Shown here: in pieces, positions 35,665 to 42,358 of the stretch
Layout of the letters: the number at the start of each line of letters is the position of its first letter
Position numbering within the stretch: position 1 is the stretch's first letter
NCBI RefSeq assembly: GCF_023051145.1
Contig: NZ_JALKFS010000005.1
Location: 3,613,733 to 3,677,732 of the forward strand
Origin: Williamsia sp. DF01-3
GTDB taxonomy: Bacteria > Actinomycetota > Actinomycetes > Mycobacteriales > Mycobacteriaceae
Reading direction: 5' to 3'
DNA: 64,000 nt
Notes under the pieces: generated by a model
Seen by the model: the letters and a program-made list of their open reading frames with translations, nothing else
Database searches by the model: none
What the model was told of the DNA's origin: nothing
Program-made: the position numbers and the translations under genes

Positions 35665-37145
35665 CAGGATGCCCCCAACACACGCGCACCCGGCAGGGCG
35701 CGAGCGCTGGTGGCAAAGGCATCACCACGGACCCCGTAACCGGCGAACATGTCGAGTGAGGCCGCGGCGGGAGCCAGCAGGACCGCGTCCGGTGTGTCCG
35801 GGTCGGCAACGCACATCTCCCAGGCGGCGCGCACCGCCCTGGCCATGACGGCAGTGGGGTCAGCAGTGTTCACCGCCCCATCTTCCCCTGTTACTACTGT
35901 GACTGTTGGTACCAGAGGGGCGTGTCGTGTCATTGCGTCGGCAATGATGTCGCGATCGGCTCCGATGATCACCACCCCGGCCAGCCGATCGCGAACCGCG
36001 ACGACGAGGTCGTCCACCGAAGCCCCTTTGAGGAGCCCTCCGGCCAGCCATACAACACGGCGATGTCCCCTGATGGACGCGAGCGCAGCGTGAGGGTTGG
36101 TGGCCTTGGAATCGTCGATGAAGGTCGTGGAGTCGATGACCGCGACCGGTGTGCTGCGATGGCCGCCGACGGTGAACGATTCGAGGCCCGCTTCCACTGC
36201 CTCTGGTCCGACACCGATGGCCCGGCACAGCGCTGCGGCGGCCAGAGCATTCAACTGTCCCGATGGCCCGGTCGGCCGGACCTTGTCCAAGGCGATCAAC
36301 GCGACAACAGAGTTGTCGCCGCTCTCGTCCCAGTCCACCCGGTCAACGAGTTGCCCGTTGGAGACCCCGAGTTCGCCGGGGTGCGGGGTGCCGAGCCGGA
36401 ACCCCACGGTCCGTGCACCTTCCGAGGTTGCGGCGAGGATGCCGGCGACAGGGTCGTCGAGCCCCACAACGGCAATCGGCCCGGACAACGCAACTGACTT
36501 CGCCTTGATGTAGGCCGACATGGAACCGTGCCAGTCGAGGTGATCTTCGGCGATGTTGAGCACGGCACCTGCGGTTGGCTGCACCGATGGCGCCCAGTAC
36601 AGCTGGAACGACGAGAGTTCAACCGCCAGGACGTCCGATCGCGGCTCGGCCATCAGGGCGTCGAGCACCGGCAGACCGATGTTGCCGCACGCGCTCACCG
36701 CCGCGCCCGCCGCGGTCATGATGGCCTCGACCATGCCGGTGGTGGTGGTCTTGCCGTTGGTCCCGGTCACCACGAGCCACTGCCGCGGCGGCCCGGTGAT
36801 CCCGGACCGATCGACCTGCCAGGCCAGTTCGACCTCACCCCACACGGGTAGACCGGCATCCGCCGCGGCGACCAGCATCGGGTTGTCAGGACGAAAGCCC
36901 GGAGAAGTGACCACAAGATCGAAGTCATCAACCCACGCGTCCCGCGCCAAGATCTCGTCCACCGTGGATGCCGCGGCTCCGAGCTCCACGAGCGGACGTG
37001 TGGCCTTGCTGTTGTTGTCGCACACCGTCACCGATGTGCCCTGGCCGAGCAGGAACCGGACAGCGGAAGCGCCGGCAATTCCGGCGCCTGCCACCAGGAC
37101 ACGTTGTCCCCACGGCGTGCCGGTGCCGGAGACGGGCACGGTCAT
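35664..37145 (-). CDS. murD: UDP-N-acetylmuramoylalanine--D-glutamate ligase (MurD)
   Basis: 493 residues from the ATG at 37145. N-terminal Rossmann [15 protein letters not shown] loop [22 protein letters not shown], and C-terminal [12 protein letters not shown]. Adds D-glutamate to UDP-MurNAc-Ala. The frame is open upstream to 37703, but that part is an Arg/His-rich shadow of mraY. Overlaps mraY (ATGA) and ftsW (TGATG). Confidence 0.95.
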
Positions 37146-38230
37146 CCTCCGCTGGCCGCCAGGAACTCGCTGTAGAACAGCGACAATCCCAAGGCACAGG
37201 CGATGGCCGTGAGCAACCAGAACCGGATGATGACCGTTGTCTCCGCCCACCCCGACAGTTCGAAGTGGTGGTGGAACGGCGCCATTCGGAACACTCGTCT
37301 CCCGGTGGTCCGGAACACTGCGATCTGGATGACAACCGAGATGATCTCGGCGACGAACAATGCGCCCACCACGACCATCAGCAGTTCGGTGCTGGTGGTG
37401 ATGGACAACCCGGCCAGCATGCCTCCGAGGGCAAGTGATCCGGTGTCGCCCATGAATATCTTGGCCGGAGCGGCATTCCACCAGAGGAAGCCGAGACAGG
37501 CGCCACCGCCGGCGACCGCGATCAACGCCAGGTCCAGGGGGTCTCGCACCGTGTAGCAGCCGGGTTCGGCCGTCTTGGGTCCACCCACGCAGGCATTCCG
37601 GTACTGCCAGAACGTGACCAGCACGTACGAGCCGAGGACCATCGCCATCGATCCTGCGGCCAGACCGTCGAGACCGTCGGTGAAGTTCACCGCGTTCGAC
37701 CACGCCGACACCACCAGCCAGCAGAAGACGACAAACAACACCGAGCTCATCGTGATGGCGTCGATGTCACGCACATACGACAGCTGGGTGCTGGCGGGCG
37801 TATAGCCGGCTTCGTTGCGGAACTGCAGTGCCAGGATGCCGAAGAGCAGGGCCGCGATCAGCTGGCCGACCGACTTGGCTGTCTTGTTCAGGCCCAGGTT
37901 GCGTTGCTTACGGATCTTGATGAAGTCGTCGAGGAAACCGACGACGGCCAGGGTGGTCGCGAGCGACAGCACGAGCACACCAGAGGCTGTCGGTCCGCTC
38001 CCATCGGTCAGGAGACCGACGAGATGAGCGCCCCAGTAGCCCGCCCAGAGTGCCGCGACGATGGCGACGCCGCCCATCGAGGGCGTACCGCGTTTGGTCT
38101 GATGGCTCTTGGGGCCCTCGACCCGGATCTCCTGGCCGAACCCCTGCCTCGAGAAGACCTTGATCAACACCGGCGTCAGCAGAATCGCCACAGCCAGCGA
38201 GATCACGCCCGCAATCAGGATCTGCCTCAC
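37142..38230 (-). CDS. mraY: phospho-MurNAc-pentapeptide transferase (MraY)
   Basis: 362-residue polytopic membrane enzyme making lipid I from UDP-MurNAc-pentapeptide and undecaprenyl phosphate. About ten helices. Catalytic and substrate motifs [39 protein letters not shown] and the HHHFE loop are all present. Begins 32 bases after the MurF-domain gene. Confidence 0.95.
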
Positions 38231-38262
38231 CTATAAGTCCTCACCTGTTCGAATGCCATCAG

Positions 38263-38721
38263 TTATTCGGACCCTTGTCGCATCAGGAGTTTGTCGGCCG
38301 GGACGTGCTCGTCCAACGCCTCGACCAGCCCCGACTCGCGTCCACCCATCACCAGCACCACGTCGTGCTCGCCGAGTTGAGCGTCCAGTATCTCCATCGC
38401 CTGCTCCGTTGCCGACACCAGGACCGCTTCGGAGCCCCACGATCCTTCCATGACCGCACCCTGGTGTAGGCCGTGCATGGCCCGGGATGTCCCCACACAG
38501 ATGATCTGACCGATGTCCAGACGCACGGCCAGCCGTCCCAATTCGTCGTGGGCGACAACCCAGGACGTCATCGCCGCTCGATTGTCGGGGTCGAAGTCGG
38601 CAGGTTTGTCGAGTTCGCCCAGCACGGCCCAGCTGCGCCGACCGGGTGCCGCATGCACGGCATCGGCGAGCTGTCGCAATCCCGCCCGCACGCTTGCGGT
38701 GTCAAAGGCACCTGATGTCAT
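38263..38721 (-). CDS. stand-alone MurF C-terminal (ligase domain III) protein
   Basis: 152 residues located exactly where murF belongs. It matches only the third domain of MurF (GRRSWAVLGEL, HDELGRLAVRLDIGQ, GAVMEGSWGSEA, GEHDVVLVMGG). The substrate-binding domain and the ATP-binding domain with its GTxGKT loop, about 350 residues, are absent. The ATG overlaps the murE stop (ATGA), so the small gene looks properly coupled, not like a random fragment. It is also diverged: the usual NANP segment before the conserved RAGL is missing, the KxS-type loop near the end reads MGGRESG, and there is a short insertion after LGEL. Alone it cannot be a ligase. Complete MurF activity must come from elsewhere, or the assembly lost a segment. 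Confidence 0.82.
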   Translation of the reverse strand: MTSGAFDTASVRAGLRQLADAVHAAPGRRSWAVLGELDKPADFDPDNRAAMTSWVVAHDELGRLAVRLDIGQIICVGTSRAMHGLHQGAVMEGSWGSEAVLVSATEQAMEILDAQLGEHDVVLVMGGRESGLVEALDEHVPADKLLMRQGSE

Positions 38722-40349
38722 GACCCACCTCCCGGAGGTGCATCCGGCCGGATGACGAGGTCGTCGATGGCCTCGGCCAACACCTGCCGGTCGTCGAACG
38801 GGTACTTGACGCCATCGATCTCCTGCCCCGCCTCATGACCTTTGCCCGCGATCAGAACCACGTCGCCCGGTTCGGCCCAGGCCACCGCAAAGCGAATTGC
38901 CTCACGCCGGTCCCCTATGTCGCGCACCGGCGCGGCGCCCGGCGGCCGTTCGGCGTCTGCCACTTCATGAGCCCCCGCCAGCACCTGGGCGCGGATGTCG
39001 TCGGGACGTTCTGTGCGCGGATTGTCGTCTGTGATGACAACGAGTTCGGCGCCACGAACCGCAGCTGCGCCCATCAACGGCCGTTTCCCGGTGTCCCGGT
39101 CACCGCCTGCCCCGACCACGACGGCCAGCCGCCCGTCGATCTGGCTCCGCAAGGTGGCGATCACCGCCTCGAGCGCCGCGGGCTTGTGGGCGTAGTCCAC
39201 GACGGCCAGAAACGCCTGGCCACGATCCACCTTCTCCACCCGCCCGGGCACCGAGACTCCGGCGATGGCGTCGATCACCGTCCGGACCGAGATGCCGATG
39301 TGGTCGCAGACAGCCAGCGCGGTCAACGCGTTGGCGACGTTGTAGCGCCCAGGCATCGGGACCGTCATGGAATAGGTATCGCCGGACGGACCGGTGACGG
39401 TGACGCTCTGGCTGCCGTCGGCGGCGACCTGTGAGTCGGACGCATGCCAGTCGGCCGCGACACCGGTGGTCGACAGGGTGATCGCGTCAGGCCCGGCAAC
39501 GCCGGCCATCTCTCTGCCCCACTCGTCGTCGACACACACCACCGACCGCAGGGCGCGCACCGGTGAATCAGGCTGGAAAAGCAGAGATTTCGCGTTGAAG
39601 TAGTCTCGCATCGTCGGATGGAAGTCCAGATGATCCTGCGACAAGTTGGTGAACGCGCCCACAGCGAAGGCACAGCCGTCGACGCGGCCGAGTGCCAGCG
39701 CGTGGCTGGACACCTCCATCACCACCGAGTGCACCCCCTGCTCCACCATCGCGGCGAGAAGGCCCTGCAGTTCCGGTGCTTCCGGGGTCGTCAGGGCACT
39801 CGGCTGGCGGATGCCCGCGATCCTCGTCTCGACCGTTCCGATCAATCCCACCGACTGCCCGGACGCCATCAACGCTGCTTCCGTCAGATAGCTGGTGGTG
39901 GTTTTGCCAGAGGTCCCGGTGATCCCGATGACGGTCAGACGCCGCGACGGTTGCCCGTAGATCCGGGAACTCAGATCGCCGAGAACCTGCCGCGGATCGG
40001 GGTGTACCAGCACAACACAGTCCAGCGGGCCGTCGAGACCCTGGATGATCGCGCTGCCCGCCGGATCGGTGAGCACAGCGGTGGCGCCGGCCGCCAGCGC
40101 ATCTGCGGCGAACTGGGCGCCATGGAAGCGGTTGCCGGGCAACGCCGCGAACAGATCTCCACGACGCACATCCTGGGCACGCAGGGTGACCCCGGTGACC
40201 GGCGTCCGTTCGTCGACCGAACCGATCAGATCCATCCGTGCGTGGCAGGCGGCGGACAGCACCGACACTTCGGTCGGGGCGACCACGGCAGGGCGCAGCA
40301 CCGAGTCATCGGAAGAAGACATTCGATCAACATACCGCCGACGGGTCAC
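38718..40349 (-). CDS. murE: UDP-MurNAc-tripeptide synthetase (MurE, meso-DAP type)
   Basis: 543 residues. ATP loop GITGTSGKTTTSY, TTPEAPELQ, SSHALALGRV, and DNPRTERP: the DNPR tetrad is the meso-diaminopimelate specificity motif, so the cell wall is A1-gamma type. The GTG at 40349 overlaps the pbpB stop (GTGA); an ATG at 40322 (MSSSDDSV) is the alternative. Ends in ATGA overlap with the MurF-domain gene. Confidence 0.95.
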   Translation of the reverse strand: MTRRRYVDRMSSSDDSVLRPAVVAPTEVSVLSAACHARMDLIGSVDERTPVTGVTLRAQDVRRGDLFAALPGNRFHGAQFAADALAAGATAVLTDPAGSAIIQGLDGPLDCVVLVHPDPRQVLGDLSSRIYGQPSRRLTVIGITGTSGKTTTSYLTEAALMASGQSVGLIGTVETRIAGIRQPSALTTPEAPELQGLLAAMVEQGVHSVVMEVSSHALALGRVDGCAFAVGAFTNLSQDHLDFHPTMRDYFNAKSLLFQPDSPVRALRSVVCVDDEWGREMAGVAGPDAITLSTTGVAADWHASDSQVAADGSQSVTVTGPSGDTYSMTVPMPGRYNVANALTALAVCDHIGISVRTVIDAIAGVSVPGRVEKVDRGQAFLAVVDYAHKPAALEAVIATLRSQIDGRLAVVVGAGGDRDTGKRPLMGAAAVRGAELVVITDDNPRTERPDDIRAQVLAGAHEVADAERPPGAAPVRDIGDRREAIRFAVAWAEPGDVVLIAGKGHEAGQEIDGVKYPFDDRQVLAEAIDDLVIRPDAPPGGGS

Positions 40350-42358
40350 TCGGCTCGCAGCACCAGCGGCGGCGTCGGCTGCGCCGACATCGGCACCTGC
40401 TCGCGCTGCAGCATCCAGGACGCAATGCTCTGGAACAGCGGAGCAGCACTCTGGCCGCCGGTGCCGTCACTGCTGCGGGAGGGGGCGTCGAGCATGATCC
40501 CGATGACGTACCGGGGGTTGTCGGCCGGGGCTATGCCGGCGAACGTGATGTTGTAGCTCGACTGCGAGTAGCAACCGCAATCGGGGTCGACCTGTTGGGC
40601 GGTACCCGTCTTCCCGCTGATCTGATAGCCCGGCACCTCGGCTTTGGCGCCGGTACCCATCTGAACGCCCATCGGGTCGTTCTGGATGGTCGCGCGGAAC
40701 ATGTCCCGCACCGTCCGAGCCGTTTGCGGGCTCACCACCTGCACACCCTCGGGCGCCGGCAGCTGTCCGTCCTGGCCTGTCCCCTCGATCGACTTGATGA
40801 TGCGGGGCGGAATGCGCAGACCGTCGTTGGCGATCGCCTGGTACATCGCCGTCATCTGCAGCAAGGTCATCGTGAGGCCTTGTCCGATGGGCAGATTGGC
40901 GAAAGTGCCTCCCGACCACTGGGACCGTGCCGGCACCACGCCGGCACTTTCGGCGGGGAGCCCGACGTCTGATCGCTGACCGAGGCCGAATCGCTTGACC
41001 ATGTCGGCGAATCGGTCCTCACCCACCTCATCGGCGAGCATGAGTGTTCCGACGTTCGACGACTTACCGAAGATTCCCGTGGTGGTGTAGGGCTCGACAC
41101 CGTGCGCCCAGGCGTCCTTCACCGTGACATCGGCCATGTCGATACTGCCCGGCACCTGATGCACCTCGGTCGGGTTGGTGATCCCGTATTCGATCGCGGC
41201 AGCCGCCGTGACGATCTTGTTCACCGACCCCGGTTCGAAGGGCGACGTGATCGGCAGGTCGCCGAGTTGCGCGCTCTCCTGCTCGTCGAGAGGCTTGGCA
41301 GGGTTGAAGGTGCCGTCGTTCGCCATCGCGAGGACCTCGCCCGTCTTCGCGTCGAGCACCACAGCCGACGCGTTCTTGGCCTTGGACAGCTTCTTGGCCT
41401 TCTCGACCTCGTTCTGGACGTACCACTGGATGTCGGAGTCGATGGTGAGTTCGACGGTGCCGCCGTCGACCGATGGATGCAGGTTCCTCGAGCTGCCGGG
41501 AATCACTGCGCCATCGGAGCCGCGATCGTAGGTTCGCGATCCATCGGTGCCCGAGAGGATCGAATCCATGGACGACTCCAGCCCGATGAGACCGTTGCCG
41601 TCGAAGTCGACGTCGCCGACGATGTTCGCGGCCAGTGACCCACCCGGGTAGAGGCGCACGTCCTGTCGCTCGGACCCCACCTCCGGGAACTCGTCGATGA
41701 TCTTGCCTGCCGCCTCGGGGCTGATGGCCCGCGCGAGATACACAAAGTTCTCGTTGCTGCGCAACAGCTCTTTGATCGAATCCTGGTCGTACTCACTACC
41801 CAGTTCCGCGCTGATGCCCGCCGCGATCTGGTCGATGCGTTCGTCGACGCCGGGCAGGCTCGGGTTCTTCTTGTTCGCCTCTTCGATCTCCTTGCGGACC
41901 TTCACAGGCTGAAAGGTCAAGGCACGGGCGTCATCGGTGTACGCGATCGCCTTCCCGTTGCGGTCCTCGATCGCGCCGCGCTTGGCTGGGAGCACCTCGG
42001 TGACGGCTCGCTGACTCGCCGCCTCCGCGGACAACCCCGAGGCATCCACGACCTGGAGCATCACCATCTTGATCGCGACCACCGCCACGATCAGGACGAT
42101 CACCAAGCTGGCGAGGCGATGCCGCACCAAGAATTGGCGCCCGGCCCGAAGTGCCTGTTGATTCGAATGCTGGGAACCACCGATCGGGAAGCCGGACCGA
42201 GTTGCCGCCGACCGTCCCGCCGCCACATTGTCGCCCTCGCGGGCACCGGCTCCACTCTTGCCTTGCCGACCCCGGGGCCGCCGCGCCGCGCCGGCGCGGT
42301 CTCGACCGGTGGCCCGCTGGCGGGCGCGCCGATCGTGATCGCGTGTGGGGCGCGTCAT
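40346..42358 (-). CDS. pbpB: class B penicillin-binding protein (PbpB/FtsI)
   Basis: Septal transpeptidase of 670 residues from the ATG at 42358. Basic N-terminal cytoplasmic region, one membrane helix (about 82-102), a pedestal domain and the transpeptidase domain with S378-V-N-K381 (SxxK), SSN (GKSSNVG) and KTGT (SGKTGTAQQ). Two cysteines in DPDCGCYS after KTG resemble the pair seen in mycobacterial FtsI. The frame is open upstream to 42583, overlapping ftsL, but that part is not family-like. Confidence 0.95.
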   Translation of the reverse strand: MTRPTRDHDRRARQRATGRDRAGAARRPRGRQGKSGAGAREGDNVAAGRSAATRSGFPIGGSQHSNQQALRAGRQFLVRHRLASLVIVLIVAVVAIKMVMLQVVDASGLSAEAASQRAVTEVLPAKRGAIEDRNGKAIAYTDDARALTFQPVKVRKEIEEANKKNPSLPGVDERIDQIAAGISAELGSEYDQDSIKELLRSNENFVYLARAISPEAAGKIIDEFPEVGSERQDVRLYPGGSLAANIVGDVDFDGNGLIGLESSMDSILSGTDGSRTYDRGSDGAVIPGSSRNLHPSVDGGTVELTIDSDIQWYVQNEVEKAKKLSKAKNASAVVLDAKTGEVLAMANDGTFNPAKPLDEQESAQLGDLPITSPFEPGSVNKIVTAAAAIEYGITNPTEVHQVPGSIDMADVTVKDAWAHGVEPYTTTGIFGKSSNVGTLMLADEVGEDRFADMVKRFGLGQRSDVGLPAESAGVVPARSQWSGGTFANLPIGQGLTMTLLQMTAMYQAIANDGLRIPPRIIKSIEGTGQDGQLPAPEGVQVVSPQTARTVRDMFRATIQNDPMGVQMGTGAKAEVPGYQISGKTGTAQQVDPDCGCYSQSSYNITFAGIAPADNPRYVIGIMLDAPSRSSDGTGGQSAAPLFQSIASWMLQREQVPMSAQPTPPLVLRAE

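Follow-up and report, generated by a model that had tools for sequence, protein, structure and literature searches.

A lone MurF domain III is retained between murE and mraY after displacement of the native MurF in Gordonia, Williamsia, and Jongsikchunia

RESULTS

The window analyzed here, a 64,000-nucleotide stretch of the Williamsia sp. DF01-3 genome, carries at 38263-38721 on the reverse strand an intact open reading frame of 152 codons, which starts with ATG and sits between murE and mraY. The murE frame (38718-40349, reverse strand, taken from its first possible start) encodes a full UDP-MurNAc-tripeptide synthetase (NCBIfam NF001124, 616.9 bits), and its stop shares 4 nt with the start of the 152-codon gene in an ATGA overlap at 38718-38721 on the same strand. 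On the other side, the gene at 37142-38230 (reverse strand), which we take to be mraY from its homology and its place, starts 32 nt past the stop of the 152-codon gene. Because murE overlaps and mraY is only 32 nt away, domains I and II of a MurF cannot fit at this locus. A search for an RNA element under the gene returned no Rfam match in 36500-41000.

The 152-residue protein matched the murF model TIGR01143 only at positions 316-411 of 418, with 29.3 bits (E 4e-7), which is below that model's whole-protein cut-off, and it scored 26.3 bits against Pfam Mur_ligase_C, slightly below the 28.4 cut-off. The single sequence had no match in the PDB at E<=1, while a family profile built from it and its relatives hit seven distinct entries among the PDB sequences (E<=0.01), each of them a MurF. 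AlphaFold2 modeled the domain confidently (pLDDT 90.6, pTM 0.87). A Foldseek search of this model against the PDB gave no match at E<=0.001, and methyltransferases, whose TM-scores were modest, filled most of the top rows; 3mvn, a domain of a Mur-type ligase, ranked fourth, and MurF 4ziy ranked tenth with a probability of 1.00 and a TMq of 0.55, the highest among the listed rows. Sequence profile and predicted fold together identify the protein as a Mur ligase domain III, and 38263-38721 does not qualify as a three-domain MurF since only the domain III part is present. An earlier sequence-only reading had described the gene in these terms, as a lone domain III at the murF locus, intact and joined to murE by ATGA, where MurF normally measures about 500 residues. 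Our results bear out this description, and the native MurFs that we collected measured 439-538 aa (92 rows).

The closest named records for the protein came from Williamsia muralis (97-98% identity), and most of the local matches listed against native MurFs of the family fell at ~40-56% identity. The gene was found in all nine searched genomes of its own genus. We also observed a second MurE-like gene in the same genome (L003:1387-2933, reverse strand, at ~3170 kb of G000:C5). Its residues 51-90 lie in one frame and 90-531 in another, with the switch near L003:2685, so this gene is either broken or carries a sequencing error.

A genome-wide search, as the earlier reading had advised, located a full MurF elsewhere. 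This protein, hereafter MurF2, is complete at 439 aa (G000:C5:747079-748395, in a 442-codon open frame) and scored 375.9 bits against a cut-off of 288.6, which no other match in this genome exceeded. Across this genome and its relatives, a MurF over the cut-off was present in 60 of 61, and in 14 of them it lay apart from a murE-linked domain III (nine g1 genomes, G014, G016, G019, G023, and G025). MurF2 itself occurred in 41 of 251 family genomes at 65-100% identity to that of the window's genome: nine in g1, eight in g18, 21 in g9, plus G014, G019, and G023. Another 205 family genomes matched MurF2 at E<=1e-40, with identity no higher than 52% among the matches listed, and the remaining five fell short of that E-value. 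Group g9 is Gordonia, G019 is Jongsikchunia, and G025 (g18) is Williamsia sp. CHRR-6. Within g9, the second contig of G549 matched a Gordonia bronchialis DSM 43247 plasmid without a difference over 9000 bases, and the second contig of G554 was identical to a Gordonia hongkongensis plasmid; a third g9 plasmid comparison gave transposase matches in other genera only, with none in Gordonia.

In all 41 genomes, MurF2 was full length (437-446 aa) and carried NANP. A tree of full-length MurFs (21 native, 18 further, and 14 of the 41 MurF2 rows) placed MurF2 in its own clade (support 100), apart from native and class-level MurFs. This separation indicates that MurF2 came from another lineage and rules out a relocated native gene. 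Our donor search across 296 class genomes found nothing above 53% identity outside the branch among the matches listed. A g22 genome held a second MurF (L205, G244:C42:52065-53420), 50% identical to MurF2, beside its native-type MurF.

A gap of 20 nt separates the MurF2 start from that of an opposite-strand gene, Ddl2, which scored as a D-Ala-D-Ala ligase (421.7 bits, cut-off 262). Ddl2 was matched at all 40 of the other MurF2 loci, and the head-to-head order held in each of the 10 genomes compared by coordinates. Compared with the Ddl2 of nine other genomes in the branch, its identity was 65-75%; for six family members outside the branch, the best Ddl reached 42-51%. This closeness within the branch and distance outside it, read from identities rather than from a tree, suggests that ddl and murF were replaced together. 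The genome carries another Ddl-like gene at G000:C5:600210-601226, with 40% identity to Ddl2, and G205 also has such a second gene. The presence of vanHAXRS has been reported for Williamsia marianensis (PMC8698665).

A domain III between murE and mraY, either lone or fused to MurE, accompanied MurF2 in 41 of 41 genomes. The 43 rows behind this count include two named records (L059 and L054) that are seemingly the same as G145 and G156, given zero branch length on the MurE tree, and the other 210 family genomes were covered by the matches listed rather than by reading each dcw locus. The domain was fused to MurE in six branch genomes and a separate gene in the other 35, of which 34 had its start codon overlapping the murE stop by 4 nt as NTGA. 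Other family members had open frames of ~500 codons at the murE-mraY place. Since MurF2 is of another lineage and the domain is found in every MurF2 genome, we conclude that MurF2 displaced the native MurF, of which domain III was retained. We note that a record named Kitasatospora arboriphila NRRL B-24581 (L045) has a Williamsia-type locus at 97% identity and grouped with Williamsia; it is probably mislabeled or contaminated.

To describe what the retained domain has lost and kept, we aligned 92 native, 41 MurF2, and 43 lone or fused rows, adding 18 further lone or fused rows for motif counts (61 in total, with G551 and G547 not included). The native set holds genome G036 twice and leaves out, as short, the Mycobacterium case L090 described below. 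Three motifs common to both kinds of full MurF were absent from all 61 lone or fused rows: NANP (native 92/92, MurF2 41/41), whose loss the sequence-only reading had already noticed, MxELG (92/92 and 38/41), and VK[AG]S (90/92 and 40/41). In the window, RSWAVLGELD (38608-38637, reverse strand) forms the MurF core's first strand, where the native MxELG is lost, and VLVMGGRESGL (38326-38358, reverse strand) stands in place of the full-MurF VKAS/VKGS motif. Judging from these losses, the lone domain is not expected to act as a ligase.

By contrast, GA[VIL]xEGSWG was found in 84 of 92 native and 58 of 61 lone or fused rows but in none of the 41 MurF2 rows. It belongs to a retained block at residues 58-98 of the lone domain (HDELGRLAVRL ... 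VGTSR ... HQGAVMEGSWGSE; 38428-38550, reverse strand) that is common to native MurFs and largely missing in MurF2. Of its 41 residues, 23 positions were kept at >=85% in both native and lone rows; MurF2 is gapped in the middle of the block, though it has a few single residues in common with it. Among columns at least 95% conserved in native MurFs, 22 of 32 shared with MurF2 were lost in lone domains, whereas 11 of 12 absent from MurF2 were kept (Fisher p 0.0005, with seven middling MurF2 columns set aside). At a 90% cut-off, 22 of 35 were lost vs. 14 of 22 kept (p 0.06, 11 set aside); these p-values are guides, since columns cannot be treated as independent and some genomes appear in more than one row. 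In the alignment, then, the best-surviving part of the lone domain is what MurF2 lacks. GAxxEGSWG also occurred in 15 of 28 further MurFs (26 of the 28 from the class-level search), which makes it an old actinobacterial trait, though not a universal one there.

We estimated dN/dS by the Nei-Gojobori method in 19 chosen pairs. Values for the lone domain ranged from 0.05 to 0.39 and those for MurF2 in the same genomes from 0.06 to 0.21, with the lone domain higher in 17 of the 19 pairs. By this estimate, the lone domain is under purifying selection, weaker than that on MurF2 in those 17 pairs, which indicates that part of the domain drifts. Together with the gene's presence in all nine genus genomes and, fusions included, in all 41 branch genomes, these values show that the reading frame is not a chance one. 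In a domain III tree (27 of the 92 native, eight class-level, 14 MurF2, and 41 lone or fused rows), a branch with an SH-aLRT of 100 set the lone and fused domains apart on one side, and the domain III of MurF2 formed a separate group (SH-aLRT 99). The earlier suggestion that the lone domain has evolved on its own thus agrees with our data, given a full MurF elsewhere and a separately evolving domain.

The domain was present in all 59 Gordonia genomes searched. DNA was read in 41 of these, and the other 18 were judged from open-frame length alone (175-238 codons, too short for a fusion). Over the 63 loci read (61 genomes, some of them single-contig), 18 had the domain fused in frame to the C-terminus of MurE, all of them in Gordonia. 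The 17 fused chains measured were 674-705 aa and consisted of MurE and domain III only, so they are not bifunctional MurE-MurF proteins with both ligases complete on one chain. On the MurE tree, the fused state changed five times, with at least three changes forced by well-supported branches, indicating that fusion or fission was repeated. In a predicted structure of one natural fusion (G205; pLDDT 91.4, pTM 0.79), ~5 residues link the last MurE helix to the first strand of the domain, which would thus begin close to MurE. In one Gordonia genome nested among fused relatives (G555, L273), the domain was unfused and its frame overlapping, which probably reflects a fission, or else a sequencing error. 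We caution that a single indel can fuse overlapping genes, so fusion alone is no proof of joint work.

A comparable reduction was found in Mycobacterium sp. MYCO198283 (L090), in which a lone 139-aa domain III lies between murE and mraY, with an ATG that overlaps the murE stop and without NANP, MxELG, or VKAS. Its 41-residue block was identical at 34-37 of 41 positions to nine Mycobacterium-type MurFs, a level seen between three native MurF pairs over the same block (33-37 of 41). The rest of the domain was only 34-46% identical to those MurFs, vs. 70-78% between the native pairs. A tree of MurE and MraY placed MYCO198283 within Mycobacterium (100) and apart from Gordonia/Williamsia (98), and for this reason the reduction looks independent, perhaps a second occurrence outside the branch. 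However, in the domain III tree, the MYCO198283 row was not among the Mycobacterium natives and shared one branch side with the lone rows (94/94, not a starred branch), which would also allow a single shared origin of the reduced domain. Lone rows without MYCO198283 formed a group as well (99/95), and shared losses may draw the two together in this tree.

The best MurF candidate in MYCO198283 (L280:1045-2568) is a Mur ligase that scored 191.8 bits, below the cut-off, and has a hydrophobic N-terminus in the position expected for domain I. A Ddl-like gene (30% identical to Ddl2) follows it at ~2606-3550 of L280. Of 60 relatives of MYCO198283, 54 matched its domain, all in open frames of at least 462 codons. 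The lone domain of MYCO198283 itself lies in a 593-codon open frame; an open frame is not a gene length, and these frames are therefore no proof of full MurFs. The case consists of one draft genome.

DISCUSSION

We think it reasonably probable that the lone domain is a pseudo-domain that preserves a non-catalytic docking or regulatory function of the actinobacterial MurF at MurE. On this account, MurF2 displaced the native MurF of the dcw cluster in the common ancestor of Gordonia, Williamsia, and Jongsikchunia, and the old gene lost domains I and II along with the catalytic residues of domain III. Domain III itself would have survived for the sake of another, non-catalytic role of MurF, one that resides in the HDxxGRLAVRL...VGxxR...HQGAVMEGSWGxE block, most of which is missing from MurF2. 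Produced together with MurE through the NTGA overlap, and in many Gordonia within the MurE chain, the pseudo-domain may dock on MurE and recruit or regulate the next partner, whether MurF2, MraY/MurG, or the divisome. Binding to MurE, the identity of the partner, and the use of the block as a binding surface are what we infer here, and the block might instead be needed for folding. A broader proposal, which we regard as evenly balanced, is that the actinobacterial MurF is bifunctional, combining a ligase with an important docking role at MurE via the domain III block, and that this role was kept when the ligase was displaced, perhaps twice.

The main rival, though an unlikely one in our estimation, is that the domain is a ligand sensor rather than a scaffold, keeping part of the substrate pocket, binding a precursor or dipeptide, and controlling MurE or the flow through the pool. 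In Mur ligases, the loop that follows the second core strand faces the active site, and the retained block includes this loop; the location of the domain with MurE would suit a sensor as well. Against a sensor stands the loss, from all 61 rows, of NANP, MxELG, and VK[AG]S, which both kinds of full MurF conserve.

It is less probable still that the frame is a decaying relic or a translational spacer, carrying ribosomes from murE to mraY while its protein is idle. Such a role would fit the NTGA overlap in 34 of 35 unfused genomes, the missing catalytic parts, and a dN/dS that exceeds the MurF2 value in all but two of the 19 pairs. But dN/dS stayed at 0.05-0.39, 23 positions of the 41-residue block are held at >=85% in native and lone rows alike, the domain is fused to and maintained in MurE, and the same block is kept in a Mycobacterium domain that has otherwise diverged. 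The dN/dS range, the kept block, and the MurE fusions also led us to set aside a plain pseudogene. The earlier reading had offered a full MurF elsewhere with the domain as a remnant or regulator; the full MurF is there, but "remnant" is too weak a word given purifying selection, MurE fusion in 18 of 63 loci, and the Mycobacterium case.

Two further explanations from that reading fare poorly. A split MurF, in which the lone domain would act in trans with N-terminal and central domains encoded elsewhere, draws on the modeling of domain III as a complete folding unit. We consider it very improbable, because the genome's single MurF over the cut-off is complete with its own domain III rather than an N-terminal plus central-domain partner, full-length MurF2 is present in 41 of 41 genomes, and the lone domain is without the near-invariant NANP, MxELG, and VK[AG]S. 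An assembly deletion of ~1 kb of normal murF, which the ~500-codon frames at the same place in other family members might bring to mind, is next to impossible, since 63 loci in 61 genomes have the same structure or a MurE fusion, with degenerate motifs.

Returning to a pseudo-domain at MurE, this branch offers a natural experiment in which the catalytic part of an enzyme that is essential and an antibiotic target was split from another apparent role, and it suggests that MurF has a second job besides ligation. The separation points to an exact 41-residue stretch and to a likely neighbor, MurE. The organization of the cytoplasmic Mur enzymes could be tested directly here, in laboratory actinobacteria, through a 152-aa protein or a removable C-terminal tail of MurE. 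There is also a warning for annotation: in Gordonia and Williamsia, the ligase is not what the MurF-like gene of the dcw cluster encodes.

The lone domain shares its fold, its sequence, and its gene place between murE and mraY with the domain III of MurF, but it differs from MurF in standing without domains I and II and without NANP, MxELG, and VK[AG]S. Pseudoenzymes are kept as scaffolds or regulators when catalytic residues are lost while fold and surface remain, and if our inference holds, the lone domain would work like a scaffold pseudoenzyme. To our knowledge, no known pseudoenzyme is a single domain orphaned after the displacement of an essential Mur ligase. Among the papers listed by our searches of the open-access literature, none dealt with a lone MurF domain III, with MurF displacement in Gordonia/Williamsia, or with a fusion of MurE and domain III.

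Extra murF genes in actinobacteria have been described near vanHAX, that is, near a D-Ala-D-Lac ligase gene (PMC8698665). The MurF2/Ddl2 pair differs in that it spans the whole branch and Ddl2 scores as a D-Ala-D-Ala ligase. Another parallel is the MurE-MurF fusion of Bordetella, reported to interact with MurG, for which a scaffold role has been proposed (PMC6420597). It likewise carries MurE and MurF sequence on one chain, but the Bordetella fusion is bifunctional, whereas all that the Gordonia fusion adds to MurE is the domain III of a MurF, its catalytic motifs gone. Unlike in Bordetella, MurF activity in fused Gordonia is expected from a separate gene. Still, the binding of MurG by the Bordetella MurE-MurF makes a docking role plausible for the lone domain, by analogy rather than by test.
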